Of a stretch of 41,378 bases of DNA, positions 26,120 through 41,378 are shown one piece after another (the first letter of the stretch is position 1; each line of letters opens with the position of its first letter). Below the pieces are notes generated by a model, which saw nothing but the letters and a program-made list of their open reading frames with translations, had not been told where the DNA came from and ran no database searches. The translations under genes and the position numbers were made by a program. Source of the stretch: Verrucomicrobiota bacterium (lineage in GTDB: Bacteria; Verrucomicrobiota; Verrucomicrobiia; Limisphaerales; JACQFS01); NCBI GenBank assembly GCA_016199935.1, contig JACQFS010000031.1, positions 1-41,378 on the forward strand. The letters are read 5' to 3'.

Positions 26120-27544
26120 TCACTTCTCAAAGTCCACACACACCAGCCGGTCCTCGCTGCGCAGATAGACTTTCTTGCGCGACAGCGCCGGCGCGGCCCA
26201 GCACGGGTAATGCAGGTCCGGCACCTGCCAGCGCGCGAGTTCCTCCGGCTTCTCCGCGTTCACCTTGAAAATGCCGAGCAGGCCGCCCTCGCCGAGCGCG
26301 ATGAGTTTTCCCTCGGTCATCACCGCCGAGCCGCGGCCGAAGACGGGCGGCTGCGGCGAACTGTGCGGTGCCCAGCGCTCGTCGCGCGACCACTTCACTT
26401 TGGCCGTCTTCATTTCCACGCACTTGAAGAACGCATCCGGTTCGTTGCGCCCGTCGAAGGCGTAAATGACGCCCTCGTGATACACCGGCGTGTTCCAATG
26501 AATGCCGAGCACGGGATCGAGCAGCGCGCCGTTCGTGCCGCGCTCCTGAAATGTTTTTGGCTGACACCAGACCTCCTCAAAACTTTTTCCATCCGGCTTC
26601 ACGCGGAGCAAGAACGAGCCGACGCGGAAATACGCCGCTGAGACGAACACCAGATCATCCACGACCACCGGCGACATCCCGTTCACCGAATCACTGCCGA
26701 CGGATTGAAACCATCGGCTGAAGTTCACCGCGCCATTCGTCGGGTTCAGCGACACCAGCCCCTGCCGCATCACGCAAAACACGTGGCGCTTCCCGTGAAT
26801 CGTCGCGGCCACCGGTGACGAGTAGCTCGCGGATTTCTCCACCGTCGTCCAGCGATAGGTGCGGTCACCCGGCCAGCCGAGCATCGGCACGCCTTCCCAG
26901 TTCGTCTTGCCGACGCTTTGCCAGAGCGTCTTGCCCGTCGCCGCGTCGAAAGCCACCACGCCCGAGTTTGGCTGGCCGCCGACTTCCACGATGAGTTTCC
27001 CGTCCTCGAGCAAAGGCGTGCAGCCGACACCGAAGAACGCCTCCGGCACCTCGAAGTCCTTCGCCGTGTCGCGCACCCACACCGGCTTGCCGGATTTCAA
27101 ATCAAGGCACGTCAGCATGCCCTGCACGCCGAACGTGTAGCAGCGGTCCTCCGTGAGCAGCGGCGTGCAGCGCGGGCCGTTGTTGTAGCCGTAGGGATCG
27201 CGGTAGGCGCAGGGATTCGTGTGCCGCCAGCCCGGTTTGCCCGTCGCCGCGTCGAAACTCTCCACGATCTCCTCATTGCCCAGCCGGTGATGCAGCACCA
27301 GTTGCGAGCCGCGCACCGAGGGCGCGCTGTAGCCCGTGCCGATTTCCTTTTTCCACACGATCCGGGGGCCGTCCTTCGGAAACGAGTCGAGCAGGCCGGT
27401 CTCGCGCGATGTGTTGTCCCCGCGCGGGCCGAGGAAGCGCGGCCAGTCCTCGCCGTCGGATTGCGCGGGGGTGGCGGCTGGCGTGCAGAAGCGTGACAGC
27501 AGGAAAATTGCAATCGCAGCGCGAAGCAAACGTGACATGAACAT
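26120..27544 (-). CDS. Secreted PQQ-like beta-propeller protein
   Basis: About 474 residues, exported: a signal peptide near 1-27 (MSRLLRAAIAIFLLSRF core), then DWPRFLGPRGDN, the usual opening of PVC-group PQQ-binding-like propeller proteins. Repeated blades of the type AATGKxLWQ, DLKSGKPVWV and NPTNGAVNF follow. I start it at ATG 27544; the ATG at 27538 is equally likely, and the frame stays open to 27604. No cytochrome or dehydrogenase domain is present, so it is more like a BamB-type scaffold or sensor than an enzyme. It is paralogous to the protein at 31787-33079. Confidence 0.88.
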   Translation of the reverse strand: MFMSRLLRAAIAIFLLSRFCTPAATPAQSDGEDWPRFLGPRGDNTSRETGLLDSFPKDGPRIVWKKEIGTGYSAPSVRGSQLVLHHRLGNEEIVESFDAATGKPGWRHTNPCAYRDPYGYNNGPRCTPLLTEDRCYTFGVQGMLTCLDLKSGKPVWVRDTAKDFEVPEAFFGVGCTPLLEDGKLIVEVGGQPNSGVVAFDAATGKTLWQSVGKTNWEGVPMLGWPGDRTYRWTTVEKSASYSSPVAATIHGKRHVFCVMRQGLVSLNPTNGAVNFSRWFQSVGSDSVNGMSPVVVDDLVFVSAAYFRVGSFLLRVKPDGKSFEEVWCQPKTFQERGTNGALLDPVLGIHWNTPVYHEGVIYAFDGRNEPDAFFKCVEMKTAKVKWSRDERWAPHSSPQPPVFGRGSAVMTEGKLIALGEGGLLGIFKVNAEKPEELARWQVPDLHYPCWAAPALSRKKVYLRSEDRLVCVDFEK

Positions 27545-31786: not shown

Positions 31787-33079
31787 TCACCGCAAATCCA
31801 CGCACACCAATTGTCCTTTGTCCCGCGCGTAGAACAAGCCGTCCGCCAGCGCGGCGTGGGCGCGGACGCCGCGGCCGAGGATTTGGGCACGGGCGGTTTC
31901 GTGGTAGCCGTCGGGCGAGGCGGCAGCGCGGATGAGTTCGCCGTTTTCCGTGAGCACCAGCAGCGAATCGCCCGCGAGCAGCACGTTCGCGCCGGCGAGG
32001 CCGGGTTTGCCCCAGCGCACTTGTCCGGTCCCCATTTCCACACAGCGCAGTTCCGTCCCGCCGATGTCGTGGCGCCCGTGCAGGCCGTAGAGCAAACCGT
32101 CGCGATGAACGGCCGTGGTGAATTGGAGCGAGAGATCTTCATCGCTCGCCCAGACTTTCGCGGGCCTCCCGTTTGTCATGCGCATCAGCAGTCCACCGAG
32201 GTCGTAGGCTGCGGAGATAAAGATATTGTCGCCCGCCACCGTCGGCAGCGCGCCGGTGACCGAGGCTTGGACGGGCGGGCGAAACGGCTGCTCGAACAGG
32301 ATTTTTCCATCCGCTGGGTCGAGGCCGATGAAATGGCCCCGCGTGAGCGCCAGAATGTGGCGCTTGCCGCCGAGCGTGGCCGCGACGGGCGAGGAGTAGC
32401 TTGGTTCGTCGGAGAAACTGTGCCACAAAATTTTTCCAGTCTCGCGGTCGAACGCCACGAGGCAGGCGGCCCCGCCGTTCGGAGCGCGGAGCTCTGGCTC
32501 CGCACGCGCGGAGCTGGAGCTCCGCGCTCCGCCCACGTCCACGATCACCGCTTTGCCCTCGACGAGTGGCGAGCACGCCAAGCCGAAGAATCCCTGCGGC
32601 GCGGCAAATTCCTTTTTGCAATCCACGCTCCAGATTTTCTTTCCGTCGGCGAGCGCGGTGCAGGTGAGCGCGCCATCCGCGCCGAACGTGAACACCTTGC
32701 CATCCGCCACCGTGGGCGTGCCGCGCGGGCCGGGGTCGAAGCCGAAGTTGTCGCGATACGCGGTGGGATACTCGAACTTCCAGAGCGGCTTCCCGTCTTT
32801 CGCGTCGAGGGCCTCGACGGTCTCCGCATCGCCGACGCGCGTGAAGAGGATGAGTTTGCCCTGCGCGACGACGGGTGCGGCGAAGCCCTGGCCGATTTTT
32901 TTCTGCCATAGCACGCGCGGACCGCCCTTGGGCCAAGCGGCGGCGAGGTCTTTGCCGGAGTAAATGCCGTCGCGATTCGGGCCGAGCAGTTGCGGCCAGT
33001 CGGCGGCGCGCAGGCAGAGGGCAGAGGTCAGAAGACAGAGGGCAGCGAGGAACGGCAGCGGCGCGCGGCGAAATTTCAT
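31787..33079 (-). CDS. Secreted PQQ-like beta-propeller protein with in-frame palindrome
   Basis: 430 residues from ATG 33079 (the frame is open to 33109). A signal peptide ends near LCLRAA, then DWPQLLGPNRDG and propeller blades (DAKDGKPLWKF, ALADGKKIWSV, DRETGKILWHS). It is a paralogue of the protein at 26120. Where the paralogue has VEVGGQPNSGVVAFD, this one has VDVGG, then an insert GARSSSSARAEPELRAP (residues ~184-200), then NGGAACLVAFD. The insert is encoded exactly by a 50-bp palindrome. It is probably the last gene of the minus-strand cluster starting at 35381. Role unknown; no catalytic residues seen. Confidence 0.87.
   Translation of the reverse strand: MKFRRAPLPFLAALCLLTSALCLRAADWPQLLGPNRDGIYSGKDLAAAWPKGGPRVLWQKKIGQGFAAPVVAQGKLILFTRVGDAETVEALDAKDGKPLWKFEYPTAYRDNFGFDPGPRGTPTVADGKVFTFGADGALTCTALADGKKIWSVDCKKEFAAPQGFFGLACSPLVEGKAVIVDVGGARSSSSARAEPELRAPNGGAACLVAFDRETGKILWHSFSDEPSYSSPVAATLGGKRHILALTRGHFIGLDPADGKILFEQPFRPPVQASVTGALPTVAGDNIFISAAYDLGGLLMRMTNGRPAKVWASDEDLSLQFTTAVHRDGLLYGLHGRHDIGGTELRCVEMGTGQVRWGKPGLAGANVLLAGDSLLVLTENGELIRAAASPDGYHETARAQILGRGVRAHAALADGLFYARDKGQLVCVDLR
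32481..32530. repeat. 50-bp palindrome inserted in a coding sequence
   Basis: Arms 32481-32503 and 32508-32530 pair over 23 bp with 2 mismatches around a 4-nt loop. Each half also contains its own hairpin (for example a 10-bp stem with CC loop on the minus strand). It lies inside the propeller gene, in frame, and is homologous to the element at 40178. Confidence 0.9.
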
Positions 33080-36882: not shown

Positions 36883-36982
36883 CGGAGCGCGGCGTTTACG
36901 CCGCTTCATCGTTCGCAAGCGCACCGGCAACCGTTGCCCCCATGCCCTTTGGACATCGAAGCGGCGTAAACGCCGCGCTCCG
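36883..36982. repeat. Twin-hairpin inverted repeat, 25-bp perfect arms
   Basis: Arms 36883-36907 and 36958-36982 are perfect inverted copies of 25 bp around a 50-nt centre. Each arm has an internal 7-bp hairpin with a 2-nt loop (36889-36904 in the left arm). The outward ends read GGAGCGCGG, the same head as the elements at 32481 and (as GGAGCGCC) 40178. Intergenic, downstream of the VOC gene. Confidence 0.92.
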
Positions 36983-37125: not shown

Positions 37126-37459
37126 GATAAAGCTCTTTTGGCGACGAAAACAGCCTTTTTCACGCTGAAAACGGTCTTTCCGGCGACGGACAAAGGCTTG
37201 TCCGTGGCAAACAAGGTCTTGTCCGTGACGAACAAAGGCTTGTCCGCGACGAACAAAGGCTTGTCCGCGACGAACAAAGGCTTGTCCGCGACGAACAAGG
37301 TCTTGTCCGCGACGGACAAAACCTTGTCCGCGACGAACAAGGCTTGTCCGTGGCGGACAAGGTTTTGTCCGTGGCGGAAAAGGTCTTATCTGCGACGGAG
37401 AAAGCCTTCTCCGTGACGGACAAGATTGCTTCCGGGACGGGCAGAGTCCTGAAATGCGC
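37126..37459. repeat. Tandem array of sixteen 21-bp units with internal dyads
   Basis: Units start at 37126, 37146, 37167, 37188, 37209, 37230, 37251, 37272, 37293, 37314, 37335, 37355, 37376, 37397, 37418 and 37439; most are 21 nt, those at 37126 and 37335 are 20. The three central ones are identical (GAACAAAGGCTTGTCCGCGAC). Each core unit has a GGACAA..TTGTCC dyad. Translation in many frames gives meaningless 7-residue repeats because 21 is divisible by 3, and the 20-nt unit breaks the longest frame. 36983-37125 and 37460-37543 show nothing recognisable. Confidence 0.9.
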
Positions 37460-37543
37460 TCCTTCGGTGGTCGGCCGCCGGTCTGCGCTTGCCGAAAATC
37501 CATTTCCCTTCATGCTCCGCGCTCAACTGATTTCACATTGCCT

Positions 37544-40500
37544 ATGCGTTCCGCCCTCAAGCTTCTCCTTCCGGCTTTCCTGAGTTCCTGCTTCCTCCGC
37601 CCCGCACGCGCGCCGTTTCCCGAAGCTCACCGCCACGACGGCCCTCACCCCAGCCCTCTCCCGGTGGGAGAGGGAGCCTCGTCCTCAGCGCGCCGCCGTC
37701 CGGGTGCGTCCGGTATGGCCGCGCGCTGGATGCGTTTCCCCCTCTCCCACCTGGAGAGGGCAGGGGTGAGGGCCGGCTTCGCGATGGTCCTCCTCCTCGC
37801 GCTGCTCTTGCTGAACACTGAACACTGCCTGCTGAATACTTCCGCCTTCGCCGCGGAGGCGAAGCCCGCGCCCTTCGAGATGAAGGAGGGCGATCGCGTG
37901 GTGTTCCTCGGCGACACGTTCATCGAGCGCGAGCAGCATTACGGGTGGATCGAGCTGATGCTCACCACGCGCTTCCCCGAACGAAACGTCACCTTTCGCA
38001 ATCTGGGTTGGAGTGCCGACACGCCGGCGGGGGATTCGCGCTTCGGCCTGAGCCTGCTGCAAGCGGGGCGCGAGCCGGCGGACGAGGGCTGGAAGCAACT
38101 GGTCAAGCAGCTCGAGGACGCGAAGCCCACGGTGGTGTTTGTCGGCTACGGGATGGCGAGTTCGTTCGACGGCGAGGCGGGCCTGCCCAAGTTCAAGGCC
38201 GACTACAACCGCCTGCTCGACACCATCGAGAAGATTTCGCCGGGGGTGAGGTTTGTGTTGATGGCAACGAGAGGTGCAGAGCCAAACATGGTTTTTTGGA
38301 ACGACTACACCGAGTATAACGAACGTAATCGAATCTCAAAACTTTACGACGGCGCTATCGCCAGCATTTCAGAAAAGAGACAAGTTCGCTTCGTCACCTT
38401 CGTAAACGAAATGATGTCGATTCCATTCAATCCTCGGACCGACAACGGTATTCATCTGAACTCGGAGGGCTACACATGGACGGCGGCAACAATGAGGCGA
38501 GAATTGTTTACCGGCACAACAGTTGTCAGACCGGCGACTCCTGAAGAAGAAGCCCTCCGCGCCGCCATCCTCCGCAAGAACGAATGGTTCTTCCACCGTT
38601 CGCGCCCGGCCAACATGGCTTACATCTTCGGCTTCCGGAAACGCGAGCAGGGCCAGAACGCCGTCGAGATTCCCAAGTTCGACGAGTTCATCGCCGCCGA
38701 GGAGAAACGCATCGCGCTGCTCCGTTCGCTCAAGCCCGGCGTGACCGTGCCGGAGGTGAAGACGCACATCGGCAACCTCACCGCCAAGCACACCGAGCAG
38801 CCGCACCCGGACTTCGAGGTGGCCGACGGTTTCGAGGTCACGCTCTGGGCCGAGAATCCGCTCCTCAACAAACCCATCCAGATGAACTTCGATCCGCAGG
38901 GCCGCCTCTGGGTCGCCAGCTCGGAAGTTTATCCGCAGATCGAACCCGGCCAGGCCGCCACGGACAAAATCATCGTGCTCGAAGACACGAAGGGCGCCGG
39001 CCACGCCGACAAGGCCACGGTGTTCGCGGAAGGGTTGCTCATTCCCACCGGCATCGAGCCGGGCGATGGCGGGTGTTACGTTGCGCAGAGCACGGAGCTG
39101 TTGCATTTCAAGGACACCGACGGCGACGGCAAGGCGGACGTGCGGCGCATCGTGTTGAGCGGTTTCGGCACCGAGGACACGCATCACAATTTGCACACGC
39201 TGCGCTGGGGCTTCGACGGGCGGCTGTATATGAACCAGTCCGTCTATACGCGCACGGACACCGAGACGCCGCATGGCGTGGTGCGGTTGAAGGCGGGCGG
39301 GACGTTCCGCTTCGATCCGCGCGATCAGAAGATGGAAATCCTCTACCGCGGCTGGGTCAACGCGTGGGGGCACCAGTTCGATGATTACGGGCAGTCGTTC
39401 GTGACCGACGGCGCGGGTGGGCAGGGGATCAACTGGGCCGTGCCCGGCGCGACCTACTTCACGCTCGCGCCTGCGCGGCGGATGTTGCAGAGCATCAGCC
39501 CGGGGAACTATCCGAAATTCACGAGCATCGAGATCATCCGCAGCCAGCATTTTCCCGACGACTGGCAGGGCGACATCATCACGTGCGACTTCCGCGCGCA
39601 TCGCGTGGTGCACTTCAAGGTGTCCGATCAGGGCGCCGGTTACGTGACGAAGGAAATGCCCGACCTGTTGCGCACGACGGACGCGACCTTCCGCCCGCTC
39701 GACGTGAAGCTCGGCCCCGACGGCGCGCTGTATCTCGCCGACTGGAGCAACCCGATCATCCAGCACGGCGAAGTGGATTTCCGCGACCCGCGCCGCGACA
39801 AGGAACATGGACGCATCTGGCGCATCAGCGCGAAGGGGCGTCCGCTGGTGAAGAAGGTGGACTTCGCGAAGCTCAACAACACGGAGCTGCTCGACAAGCT
39901 CGTCACGCCAAATAGCTACGAACACGAACGCGCCAAGCGCGTGCTCGTGGAACGCGGCGCGGACAAGGTCGCGAAAGACCTCACCGCGTGGACGAAGAAA
40001 CAGAAGGATGAGAAGGCGCTGCTCAATGCGCTGTGGATGTATGAATCCTTCAACCAGCCGCAGTCCGCGTTGCTGAGTCAGCTCATCGTCGCGAAGGACG
40101 CGCGGATTCGCGCCGCGGCGATTCGGGTGCTGGCGAATCAAGCGGACCAGAAGCCCGCCGGACCGCGCCGCGCCGCCGGAGCGCCGAACTCCAGTTCGGC
40201 GCGTTACGCGGCAGCCATCCAACGCGTCGATCAGGAGTTCGGCGCTTGGAAATCCGCCGTCGCCCTCGCTCAACTCACCAATCTCGTGGACCCGTTCCTC
40301 GACTACGCGCTCTGGCTAACAATCAACGAACTCGCCGAGCCGTGGATTGCAGCGCTGAAATCCGGCGCGTGGAAATTCGAGGGCCGCGAGAACCAGCTCG
40401 AGTTCGGCCTCAAGGCCATCGAGCCTGCGCTCGCGAGCGAAGTCCTCGGCCAACTCGTCGGCAACAAAATCATCCCGCGCGACGGCTCCGGCCCGTGGAT

Positions 40501-41378
40501 CGAACTCATCGGCTCCGCCGGCACGGCGAAGGAACTGCGCCAGATGTTCGACCAGTTGCTCAAGGGCGAGTTCGTCGAGCCCGCCTCGCTCCGTGTTTTC
40601 GCCGCCCTCGGCGATGCCACGCGCCTGCGCGGCGTGAAGCCCGACGGCGAACTCGCGACCTTCGGCCCGATGCTCAAGGCGAACAACGAACGCGTCCGCA
40701 TCGCCGCGCTGCAACTCGCCGGCACGTGGAAACTCGCCCGGTTCACTCCGCAAATGATTCAGGCCGCCGGCGACGCGAAGACCTCGCCCGCCGTGCGCGC
40801 CGCCGCGTTGACCGCGCTCCGCGACATCGGCGGGCCGGGCGTCGTGAAGGATTTGCAGAAGCTCGCGGCCGAAACGCAGTCGCCGGAAATCCGCCGCGAG
40901 ACGGTCACCACGCTCGCCGGCTTGAATTTCCAAGCCGCCCTCCCCGCCGTCATCACAACGCTCAAGGCCACGACGAACGAGGCCGAGGCCGCGACGCTCT
41001 GGCGCGCGTTGCTCGGCATCCGCGGCGCGGGCGCGAAGCTCGCGGCGGAATTACCCAAGTCGGGAATCTCCGCCGACACCGCGAAGGCCGGCCTGCGTCC
41101 CGCGCGCGAGGGCAATCAGAACCAGGCGCTCGTGCAGGTGCTCATGCAGCTCGCCGGGTTGACCGTCTCCGACAAGCAACTCTCGCCCGCCGAACTCCAG
41201 AAGCTCGCCGCCGAAGCCCTCGCGAAGGGCGACGCCGCGCGCGGCGAACGCATTTACCGCCGCGCCGAACTCGCGTGCATGACGTGCCACGCCATCGGCG
41301 GCGCCGGCGGCAAGGTCGGCCCCGACATGACGAGCATCGGCGCGAGCGCGCCGGCGGATTACCTCGTCGAGTCGCTGC
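37544..41378 (+). CDS. PVC-type SGNH-propeller-cytochrome c fusion protein (partial)
   Basis: Open from ATG 37544 to the window end (1278 codons, no stop), so it is truncated. Order: signal-like MRSALKLLLPAFLSSCFL; a repeat-derived stretch (~33-77); a second hydrophobic segment from Met 81 (MVLLLALLLL ... TSAFAAEA); an SGNH-like domain from ~117 in which block I is GDT (123-125) instead of GDS, so the nucleophile is not serine; a beta-propeller of the 'putative membrane-bound dehydrogenase' type (~427-770, e.g. DPQGRLWVASS, DTDGDGKADV, GPDGALYLADW); HEAT-like repeats (~790-1190); and a heme c motif CMTCH at 1245-1249, as in Planctomycete cytochrome domains. Starting at ATG 37784 (codon 81) is a real alternative. 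Role inferred: periplasmic electron-transfer or sugar-oxidation component. Confidence 0.85.
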   Translation, partial: MRSALKLLLPAFLSSCFLRPARAPFPEAHRHDGPHPSPLPVGEGASSSARRRPGASGMAARWMRFPLSHLERAGVRAGFAMVLLLALLLLNTEHCLLNTSAFAAEAKPAPFEMKEGDRVVFLGDTFIEREQHYGWIELMLTTRFPERNVTFRNLGWSADTPAGDSRFGLSLLQAGREPADEGWKQLVKQLEDAKPTVVFVGYGMASSFDGEAGLPKFKADYNRLLDTIEKISPGVRFVLMATRGAEPNMVFWNDYTEYNERNRISKLYDGAIASISEKRQVRFVTFVNEMMSIPFNPRTDNGIHLNSEGYTWTAATMRRELFTGTTVVRPATPEEEALRAAILRKNEWFFHRSRPANMAYIFGFRKREQGQNAVEIPKFDEFIAAEEKRIALLRSLKPGVTVPEVKTHIGNLTAKHTEQPHPDFEVADGFEVTLWAENPLLNKPIQMNFDPQGRLWVASSEVYPQIEPGQAATDKIIVLEDTKGAGHADKATVFAEGLLIPTGIEPGDGGCYVAQSTELLHFKDTDGDGKADVRRIVLSGFGTEDTHHNLHTLRWGFDGRLYMNQSVYTRTDTETPHGVVRLKAGGTFRFDPRDQKMEILYRGWVNAWGHQFDDYGQSFVTDGAGGQGINWAVPGATYFTLAPARRMLQSISPGNYPKFTSIEIIRSQHFPDDWQGDIITCDFRAHRVVHFKVSDQGAGYVTKEMPDLLRTTDATFRPLDVKLGPDGALYLADWSNPIIQHGEVDFRDPRRDKEHGRIWRISAKGRPLVKKVDFAKLNNTELLDKLVTPNSYEHERAKRVLVERGADKVAKDLTAWTKKQKDEKALLNALWMYESFNQPQSALLSQLIVAKDARIRAAAIRVLANQADQKPAGPRRAAGAPNSSSARYAAAIQRVDQEFGAWKSAVALAQLTNLVDPFLDYALWLTINELAEPWIAALKSGAWKFEGRENQLEFGLKAIEPALASEVLGQLVGNKIIPRDGSGPWIELIGSAGTAKELRQMFDQLLKGEFVEPASLRVFAALGDATRLRGVKPDGELATFGPMLKANNERVRIAALQLAGTWKLARFTPQMIQAAGDAKTSPAVRAAALTALRDIGGPGVVKDLQKLAAETQSPEIRRETVTTLAGLNFQAALPAVITTLKATTNEAEAATLWRALLGIRGAGAKLAAELPKSGISADTAKAGLRPAREGNQNQALVQVLMQLAGLTVSDKQLSPAELQKLAAEALAKGDAARGERIYRRAELACMTCHAIGGAGGKVGPDMTSIGASAPADYLVESL
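37640..37774. repeat. Palindromic repeat in the N-terminal coding region
   Basis: Arms 37640-37662 and 37753-37774 pair over 22 bp with 1 mismatch. Each side also has its own hairpin (9-bp stem 37654-37662 with 37666-37674; 8-bp stem 37740-37747 with 37753-37760). It reads in frame as PHPSPLPVGEG-type peptide, a style familiar from repeat-derived peptides. It lies between two candidate signal peptides of the last gene. Confidence 0.88.
40178..40246. repeat. Palindromic element inside the last gene
   Basis: A perfect 10-bp hairpin with CC loop (40181-40190 with 40193-40202), and a 13-bp inverted repeat between 40180-40192 and 40234-40246. In frame, it encodes GAPNSSSAR at codon 879 onward, between two HEAT-like repeats. 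Homologous to the element at 32481-32530. Confidence 0.82.

Follow-up and report, generated by a model that had tools for sequence, protein, structure and literature searches.

A GGAG-tagged, REPIN-like palindrome in a predicted surface loop of a verrucomicrobial beta-propeller protein

Introduction

Previous studies have described REP sequences as short hairpins in many dispersed copies, with a GTAG or GTGG tag at the hairpin foot (PMC3686654, PMC6006769); a further study lists GTAG and CGTC tags, plus GTGG and other degenerate variants (Di Nocera, 2013; PMC3733652). Two inverted REPs close enough to form one hairpin make up a REPIN, for which placement is extragenic: in Pseudomonas fluorescens SBW25, genes are overlapped by only 14 of 1,067 core REP 16-mers (PMC3116915). 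A family mobilised by a REP-associated tyrosine transposase (RAYT, a single-strand HUH/Y1 enzyme) would share a genome with its cognate RAYT gene, flanked by that family's own hairpin. The guide contacts of one such enzyme, Escherichia coli TnpAREP, lie in W94-R104 (PMC6006769), and in a published model the last two bases of the tag (AG) guide cleavage at CT (PMC8266576)—though the biochemistry of REP-RAYT specificity is limited to a few model REPtrons (PMC8266576).

REP doublets within ORFs are a kind of insertion already known. Those of one study, most of them in Opitutus terrae, are GTAG dimers that lie in frame in ORFs including uvrA and add 20–30 residues (Di Nocera, 2013; PMC3733652). 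Rickettsia palindromic elements (RPEs) also sit in frame in protein genes, where they are apparently tolerated; RPE-4 and RPE-6 are CGTC-tagged, and a dedicated transposase was not found for CGTC repeats (PMC3733652).

The element described here resembles the REPINs/BIMEs of the REP-RAYT system (Bertels and Rainey, 2011; PMC3116915) in its tagged hairpins, inverted pairs and tens of dispersed copies, and in that cognate single-strand tyrosine transposases with hairpins of the same kind alongside occur, here in relatives. It differs in its tag (GGAG rather than GT[AG]G), in placing about a third of its copies in conserved genes, and in that no cognate RAYT was found in its own genome. It shares its phylum and its in-frame setting with the O. 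terrae dimers but has another unit and tag, and it comes with an empty site in 29 orthologues and a correlation between tag and RAYT. It has neither the CGTC end of the CGTC-tagged REP superfamily nor the tag or sequence of the RPEs, to which it is unrelated. The GGAG tag was absent from the REP papers searched (PMC3686654, PMC6006769 and PMC3733652 among them), a search outside which most subscription literature lay.

Results

An in-frame palindrome and its empty site

The window (the whole 41,378-nt stretch that was analysed) comes from a Verrucomicrobiota genome of 5.03 Mb, assembled in 260 contigs and 97.7% complete, and holds a palindrome within a gene for a propeller protein that likely carries a signal peptide (Table 1). 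The initial annotation had proposed a 50-bp palindrome with 23-bp arms and two mismatches at 32481–32530, and a repeat search confirmed it, returning arms of 24 nt each (32480–32503 and 32508–32531) that are 92% complementary and stand 4 nt apart. Its core consists of two 25-nt half-sites with a spacer of 0, giving an element length of 50 (50–52 bp with the outer bases). The palindrome is read in frame and codes for GARSSSSARAEPELRAP, 17 residues in a blade loop. The proposed length of 17 residues thus stands, but the boundary, which had been set after VDVGG, does not: the second Gly of that motif is supplied by the element itself and is counted in the 17.

Table 1. Features of the window, with positions counted from its first nucleotide.
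Feature	Position	Strand	Details
Palindromic element, REPIN-like doublet	32480..32531	.	arms 92% complementary; belongs to dispersed family
Half-site 1, GGAGCGCGGAGCTCCAGCTCCGCGC	32506..32530	-	GGAG tag and perfect 10-bp hairpin; 0 mismatches to consensus over 23 nt
Half-site 2, GGAGCGCGGAGCTCTGGCTCCGCAC	32481..32505	+	GGAG tag and hairpin unit like half-site 1; 2 mismatches to consensus over 23 nt
Host gene, PQQ_2 / BamB-type beta-propeller	31787..33079 from ATG	-	430 aa; PF13360 E=5.7e-40
Paralogous PQQ_2 propeller without insert	26120..27544	-	reads VEVGGQPNSGVVAFD; 36% identical to host protein
Second family member, GGAGCGCCGAACTCCAGTTCGGCGC and decayed partner	40178..40248	+	in frame; reads GAPNSSSAR
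Open frame with second copy: GDSL lipase, DUF7133, HEAT_2	37229..41377	+	PF23500 E=2.5e-77; PF13646; PF13472
Intergenic doublet of second GGAG family, GGAGCGCGGCGTTTACGCCGC	36884..36981	.	73 half-sites in genome

The paralogue in the window is empty at the site, as had been noted. The earlier argument from that paralogue alone was weak, and because the two proteins share so little identity, orthologues were sought. Among 58 genomes, the palindrome's own included, the search returned 29 propeller orthologues from 29 other families of the order (38–69% identity), and all 29 have a gap at exactly the palindrome point, of 17 columns (18 in three); the net gap of 17 columns corresponds to 51 bp, for a palindrome of 50 bp. 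An insert common to several genera without a palindrome in its DNA, which would have counted against colonisation, is therefore excluded for the propeller gene. None of the genomes searched was a closer relative than one of the same order, and no target-site signature or target duplication is readable at the propeller site, since identity to the nearest orthologue reaches only 69%. Codon usage is normal on both sides of the insert, in a gene that is itself among those training the codon score.

An AlphaFold2 model of the propeller, built from a 31-row alignment, has a pLDDT of 86.7 and a pTM of 0.87. In this model a blade hairpin carries the insert (residues 183–199) as a disordered loop between the strands at 176–180 and 206–210, with pLDDT below 50 at 189–193 and 195–201, mostly within the insert. 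Empty orthologues and modelled loop together support the original proposal that a palindrome colonised coding DNA at a surface loop.

A dispersed family of paired hairpins

Beyond that proposal, the palindrome belongs to a dispersed family with REP-like anatomy, and comparable insertions have been described in other bacteria. The family is built of GGAGCGCRGAGCTCCAGCTCYGCG hairpins. Its half-site, GGAGCGCGGAGCTCCAGCTCCGC, has 81 matches at ≤3 mismatches in the genome vs. 1 for the reversed control pattern; judged by this recurrence, the palindrome is not a chance occurrence. A census by pattern searches and fetched genome stretches resolved the 81 half-sites into 49 elements, 41 of them paired with their GGAG tags outward (head-out, REPIN-like) when some partner half-sites were accepted with up to seven mismatches. 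Each half-site forms its own hairpin, in which the tag, GGAG in nearly all, is followed by a 10-bp stem around CC. The half-sites are near-identical, and the spacers between them are nearly all different and mostly 0–30 nt long (8–30 nt in the majority of elements, 0 in the propeller element).

Across 39 distinct half-sites, the stem is paired in 92.3% of cells vs. 22–48% when slid by one to three columns, a figure inflated by the choice of half-sites partly for pairing, which does not affect the spread of pair types. Stem cells changed on both sides number 21 vs. 5.7 in shuffles (0/500), and stem pair 8–21 occurs as GC, AT and CG. This spread of pair types, together with the compensatory changes, indicates that each half has kept its own hairpin, and not just its part in the long palindrome. 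The element has no match in Rfam. The genome also holds a GGAG doublet (L025, at 44093–44253 of contig C256) whose 111-nt spacer contains another palindrome, GGACGAGCYACGCGAGTCCC, of a kind that also occurs in the altronate dehydratase gene of a relative, G002.

Copies inside conserved genes

Intragenic copies were called from the open frames over each element, codon usage on both flanks, a Pfam scan and alignment to relatives. By these measures the protein shows homology both before and after the insert for 15 of the 49 elements, and two more, in an SNF2 protein and a helicase-like ORF, are probable with support that is one-sided or from codon usage only; together this is 31–35% of the family, against the extragenic placement of REPINs. 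The 15 lie in genes for a sulfatase, DUF7133 proteins (two copies), NuoM, an MbnP/MauG protein, TrpC, altronate dehydratase (two sites), an acyltransferase/AMP-ligase, CstA, UvrA, the lactate permease LctP, an M28 peptidase, ValS and the propeller. One of the DUF7133 copies is the second family member of the window, whose partner half has decayed; its open frame runs past the contig end and has its true start inside the frame. All three reading frames are used, the GA(Q/R)SSSSAR frame being commonest (10/17), and by comparison with solved homologues the inserts of ValS, UvrA, TrpC and NuoM fall between conserved blocks.

The net insertion, set against element length, is off by a few bases between sites, and at some sites relatives carry other inserts in the same loop. 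The propeller thus has a simple empty site in every relative, which these other genes do not, and a clean insertion is not demonstrated at all sites. We considered whether the spacer might be host sequence kept between two separate insertions; a net insert of ~48–51 bp in trpC and the propeller suits this idea, which the M28 peptidase gene fits poorly. The other inserts are themselves palindromic in several cases. G002 has its own 72-bp GGAG-type doublet at the same place in MbnP, and hairpin-forming inserts at both loops of altronate dehydratase; G014 and G024 have multi-hairpin inserts at the matching loop of ValS; and UvrA and NuoM of G024 each carry a CCCTCACCCC...GGGGAGAGGG palindrome. 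It is as if the same loops had served as repeated landing sites. The altronate dehydratase, ValS, UvrA and NuoM loops at five loci from other families (L237, L228, L234, L226 and L243) hold unrelated hairpin-forming inserts.

The genome contains a second GGAG family (GGAGCGCGGCGTTTACGCCGC / GGAGCGCGGCCTTCAGGCCGC), with ~73 half-sites and doublets of ~98 bp, nearly all extragenic in the sample examined. The consensus half-site of the first family has no stop in any frame, and its doublets leave on average ~4.9 of six frames open (5.1 in coding copies, 4.8 in others), vs. 2.0 of six in the second family. Only one of 20 sampled elements of the second family lies in a convincing gene (L294); its spacer is shortened and four of its frames are open. 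The intragenic shares of the two families differ, which is suggestive and not firm: 17/49 vs. 1/20 gives a Fisher p of 0.014, and 15/49 vs. 2/20 a p of 0.12.

GGAG hairpins beside RAYT genes

One full-length RAYT of the relevant subfamily is present in the genome (contig C16; L193), flanked by GTAGCGCAGA...TCTGC hairpins whose tag is GTAG, not GGAG. No GGAG-type RAYT was found there, which in 260 contigs at 97.7% completeness is no proof of absence. Three other PF01797 matches (L033–L035) had no GGAG or GTAG hairpins alongside, in a scan that also missed the GTAG hairpins beside L036 found by other scans. Related genomes, by comparison, hold ~14 RAYT genes (NF047646) bracketed by GGAG hairpins. 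A RAYT gene of the relative G260 (L172; contig C91, 1901–2656) has GGAGCGCCGAGCTCCAGCTCGGC on both sides, with a core identical to that of the propeller element, and its own coding sequence holds, in frame at ~2395–2466, a doublet made up of a related GGAG REP.

When RAYT loci were scanned, without regard to tag, for hairpins shared by the two flanks of the gene, most of those that gave a hairpin had GTAG/GTGG or GGAG at its foot. With tag labels read by eye, also drawing on a tag-directed scan, a tree of 33 RAYTs requires two changes of tag vs. 7.3 when labels are shuffled (0/500), and a fully supported clade of 20 has only GGAG or unlabelled members. Tag type is also matched within the protein (loci L192–L274). 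All nine GTAG-flanked RAYTs have His at residue 101, and all 14 GGAG-flanked ones have Thr or Arg there, while residue 98 is Ser or Ala with GTAG flanks and Tyr (Cys once) with GGAG flanks; the E. coli TnpAREP numbering is inferred from W and R always lying 10 residues apart. The 14 include two GGAG RAYTs that the tree places with the GTAG group and not in the main GGAG clade, and these have Tyr98/Arg101. Arg101 is present in some GTAG subclasses elsewhere (PMC6006769), so a residue-101 code, if real, would be clade-specific. As GGAG retains the AG of the published tags, the cleavage site need not change with the tag.

Discussion

Placed alongside the described systems, these data raise the question of whether GGAG-tagged REPs form a class of their own. 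We give an even chance to the full proposition: that they are an undescribed tag class with its own RAYT clade; that the second tag base (T or G) is read in a simple code by residue 101 of the guide-contact segment, as His where the tag is GTAG and as Thr or Arg where it is GGAG; and that one stop-free, short-spacer family of the class lies largely inside conserved proteins, at loops also used by unrelated palindromes in other families of the order.

For the propeller itself, it is very probable that a REPIN-like element of paired, tagged hairpins was copied into a surface loop, and we infer that its mover was a RAYT of the GGAG clade working by a single-strand route. Two hairpins, each a 5' GGAG followed by a 10-bp hairpin, would in head-out inverted orientation constitute a mobile miniature unit, on whose folded single strand the predicted GGAG-recognising RAYT would act as in the REP-RAYT model; in the genome studied, that enzyme would now be lost, unassembled or undetected. 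With a unit free of stops and with short spacers, most frames would stay open after insertion, and purifying selection would spare insertions that fall in disordered loops and add a net multiple of three bases. What survives would be peptides rich in Ser, Ala, Arg and Glu (GAQSSSSAR...RAELELRAP and two other frames). Nothing seen points to a function of the peptide, and most probably the element is a passenger that the protein tolerates.

The main rival account has the hairpins spread by host processes, such as template switching or break repair that captures a hairpin, instead of by a RAYT. It would accommodate the failure to find a GGAG-type RAYT in the genome, the near-identical halves beside spacers that differ in nearly every copy, and the lack of any visible target duplication. 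Yet GGAG hairpins flank RAYT genes in relatives, tag type tracks RAYT type, and high-copy hairpins with outward tags are a known RAYT substrate, all of which makes spread by host processes unlikely. We find it improbable that the element is kept for a hairpin function in mRNA or DNA (a terminator, or a binding site for RNase or protein), with its coding location secondary. Compensatory changes do preserve the hairpins, and REPs elsewhere have such roles (PMC3733652), but recent copying and recognition by a transposase would alone keep the hairpins; a strong hairpin midway along valS, uvrA or nuoM is unlikely to serve regulation, and Rfam offers no match. That the insert is instead an old, selected part of the protein, palindromic through codon choice and lost as a loop in other lineages, can hardly be credited despite an open gene with normal flanking codon usage (itself in the codon-score training set). 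The same DNA unit recurs in every reading frame among ~16 proteins unrelated to each other, and outside coding DNA too, which refutes this account for practical purposes; all 29 orthologues, too, are empty.

The genome offers a natural experiment on palindromes entering proteins: its two GGAG families, one of them chiefly extragenic and the other with roughly a third of its copies in genes, differ in stop-codon content and spacer length. Three aspects look new from the sequence comparisons: the GGAG tag, with RAYT genes of related genomes bracketed by GGAG hairpins; the match between tag base T/G and RAYT residue 101; and the intragenic placement of about a third of a nearly stop-free family. 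The inserts further mark loops of core enzymes that tolerate ~8–27 extra residues, and the correlation between tag and residue 101 makes REP-RAYT specificity directly testable by single substitution.

Repeats of other kinds lie near the second copy in the window. A palindrome, GGCCCTCACCCC...GGGGTGAGGGCC, occupies 37641–37779 near the start of the DUF7133 frame, and palindromes of this type code for LTPSLSPSDGERV-like peptides in UvrA and NuoM of relatives; upstream of the DUF7133 gene, 37190–37430 is a run of near-repeats with a unit like GACAAGGCTTGTCCGCGACGAACAAAG. Farther afield, a 23-mer identical to GGAGCGCGGAGCTCCAGCTCCGC occurs at L076–L121, mostly in Microbulbifer, adjoining a different hairpin, TTGCGGGCCGCAGGCCCGC. 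Lateral transfer with Microbulbifer was considered on the strength of these exact matches, but the second hairpin there differs (GCGGGCC-GCA-GGCCCGC) and shared descent is not claimed. The same half-site also occurs in Reyranella, as an inverted pair.
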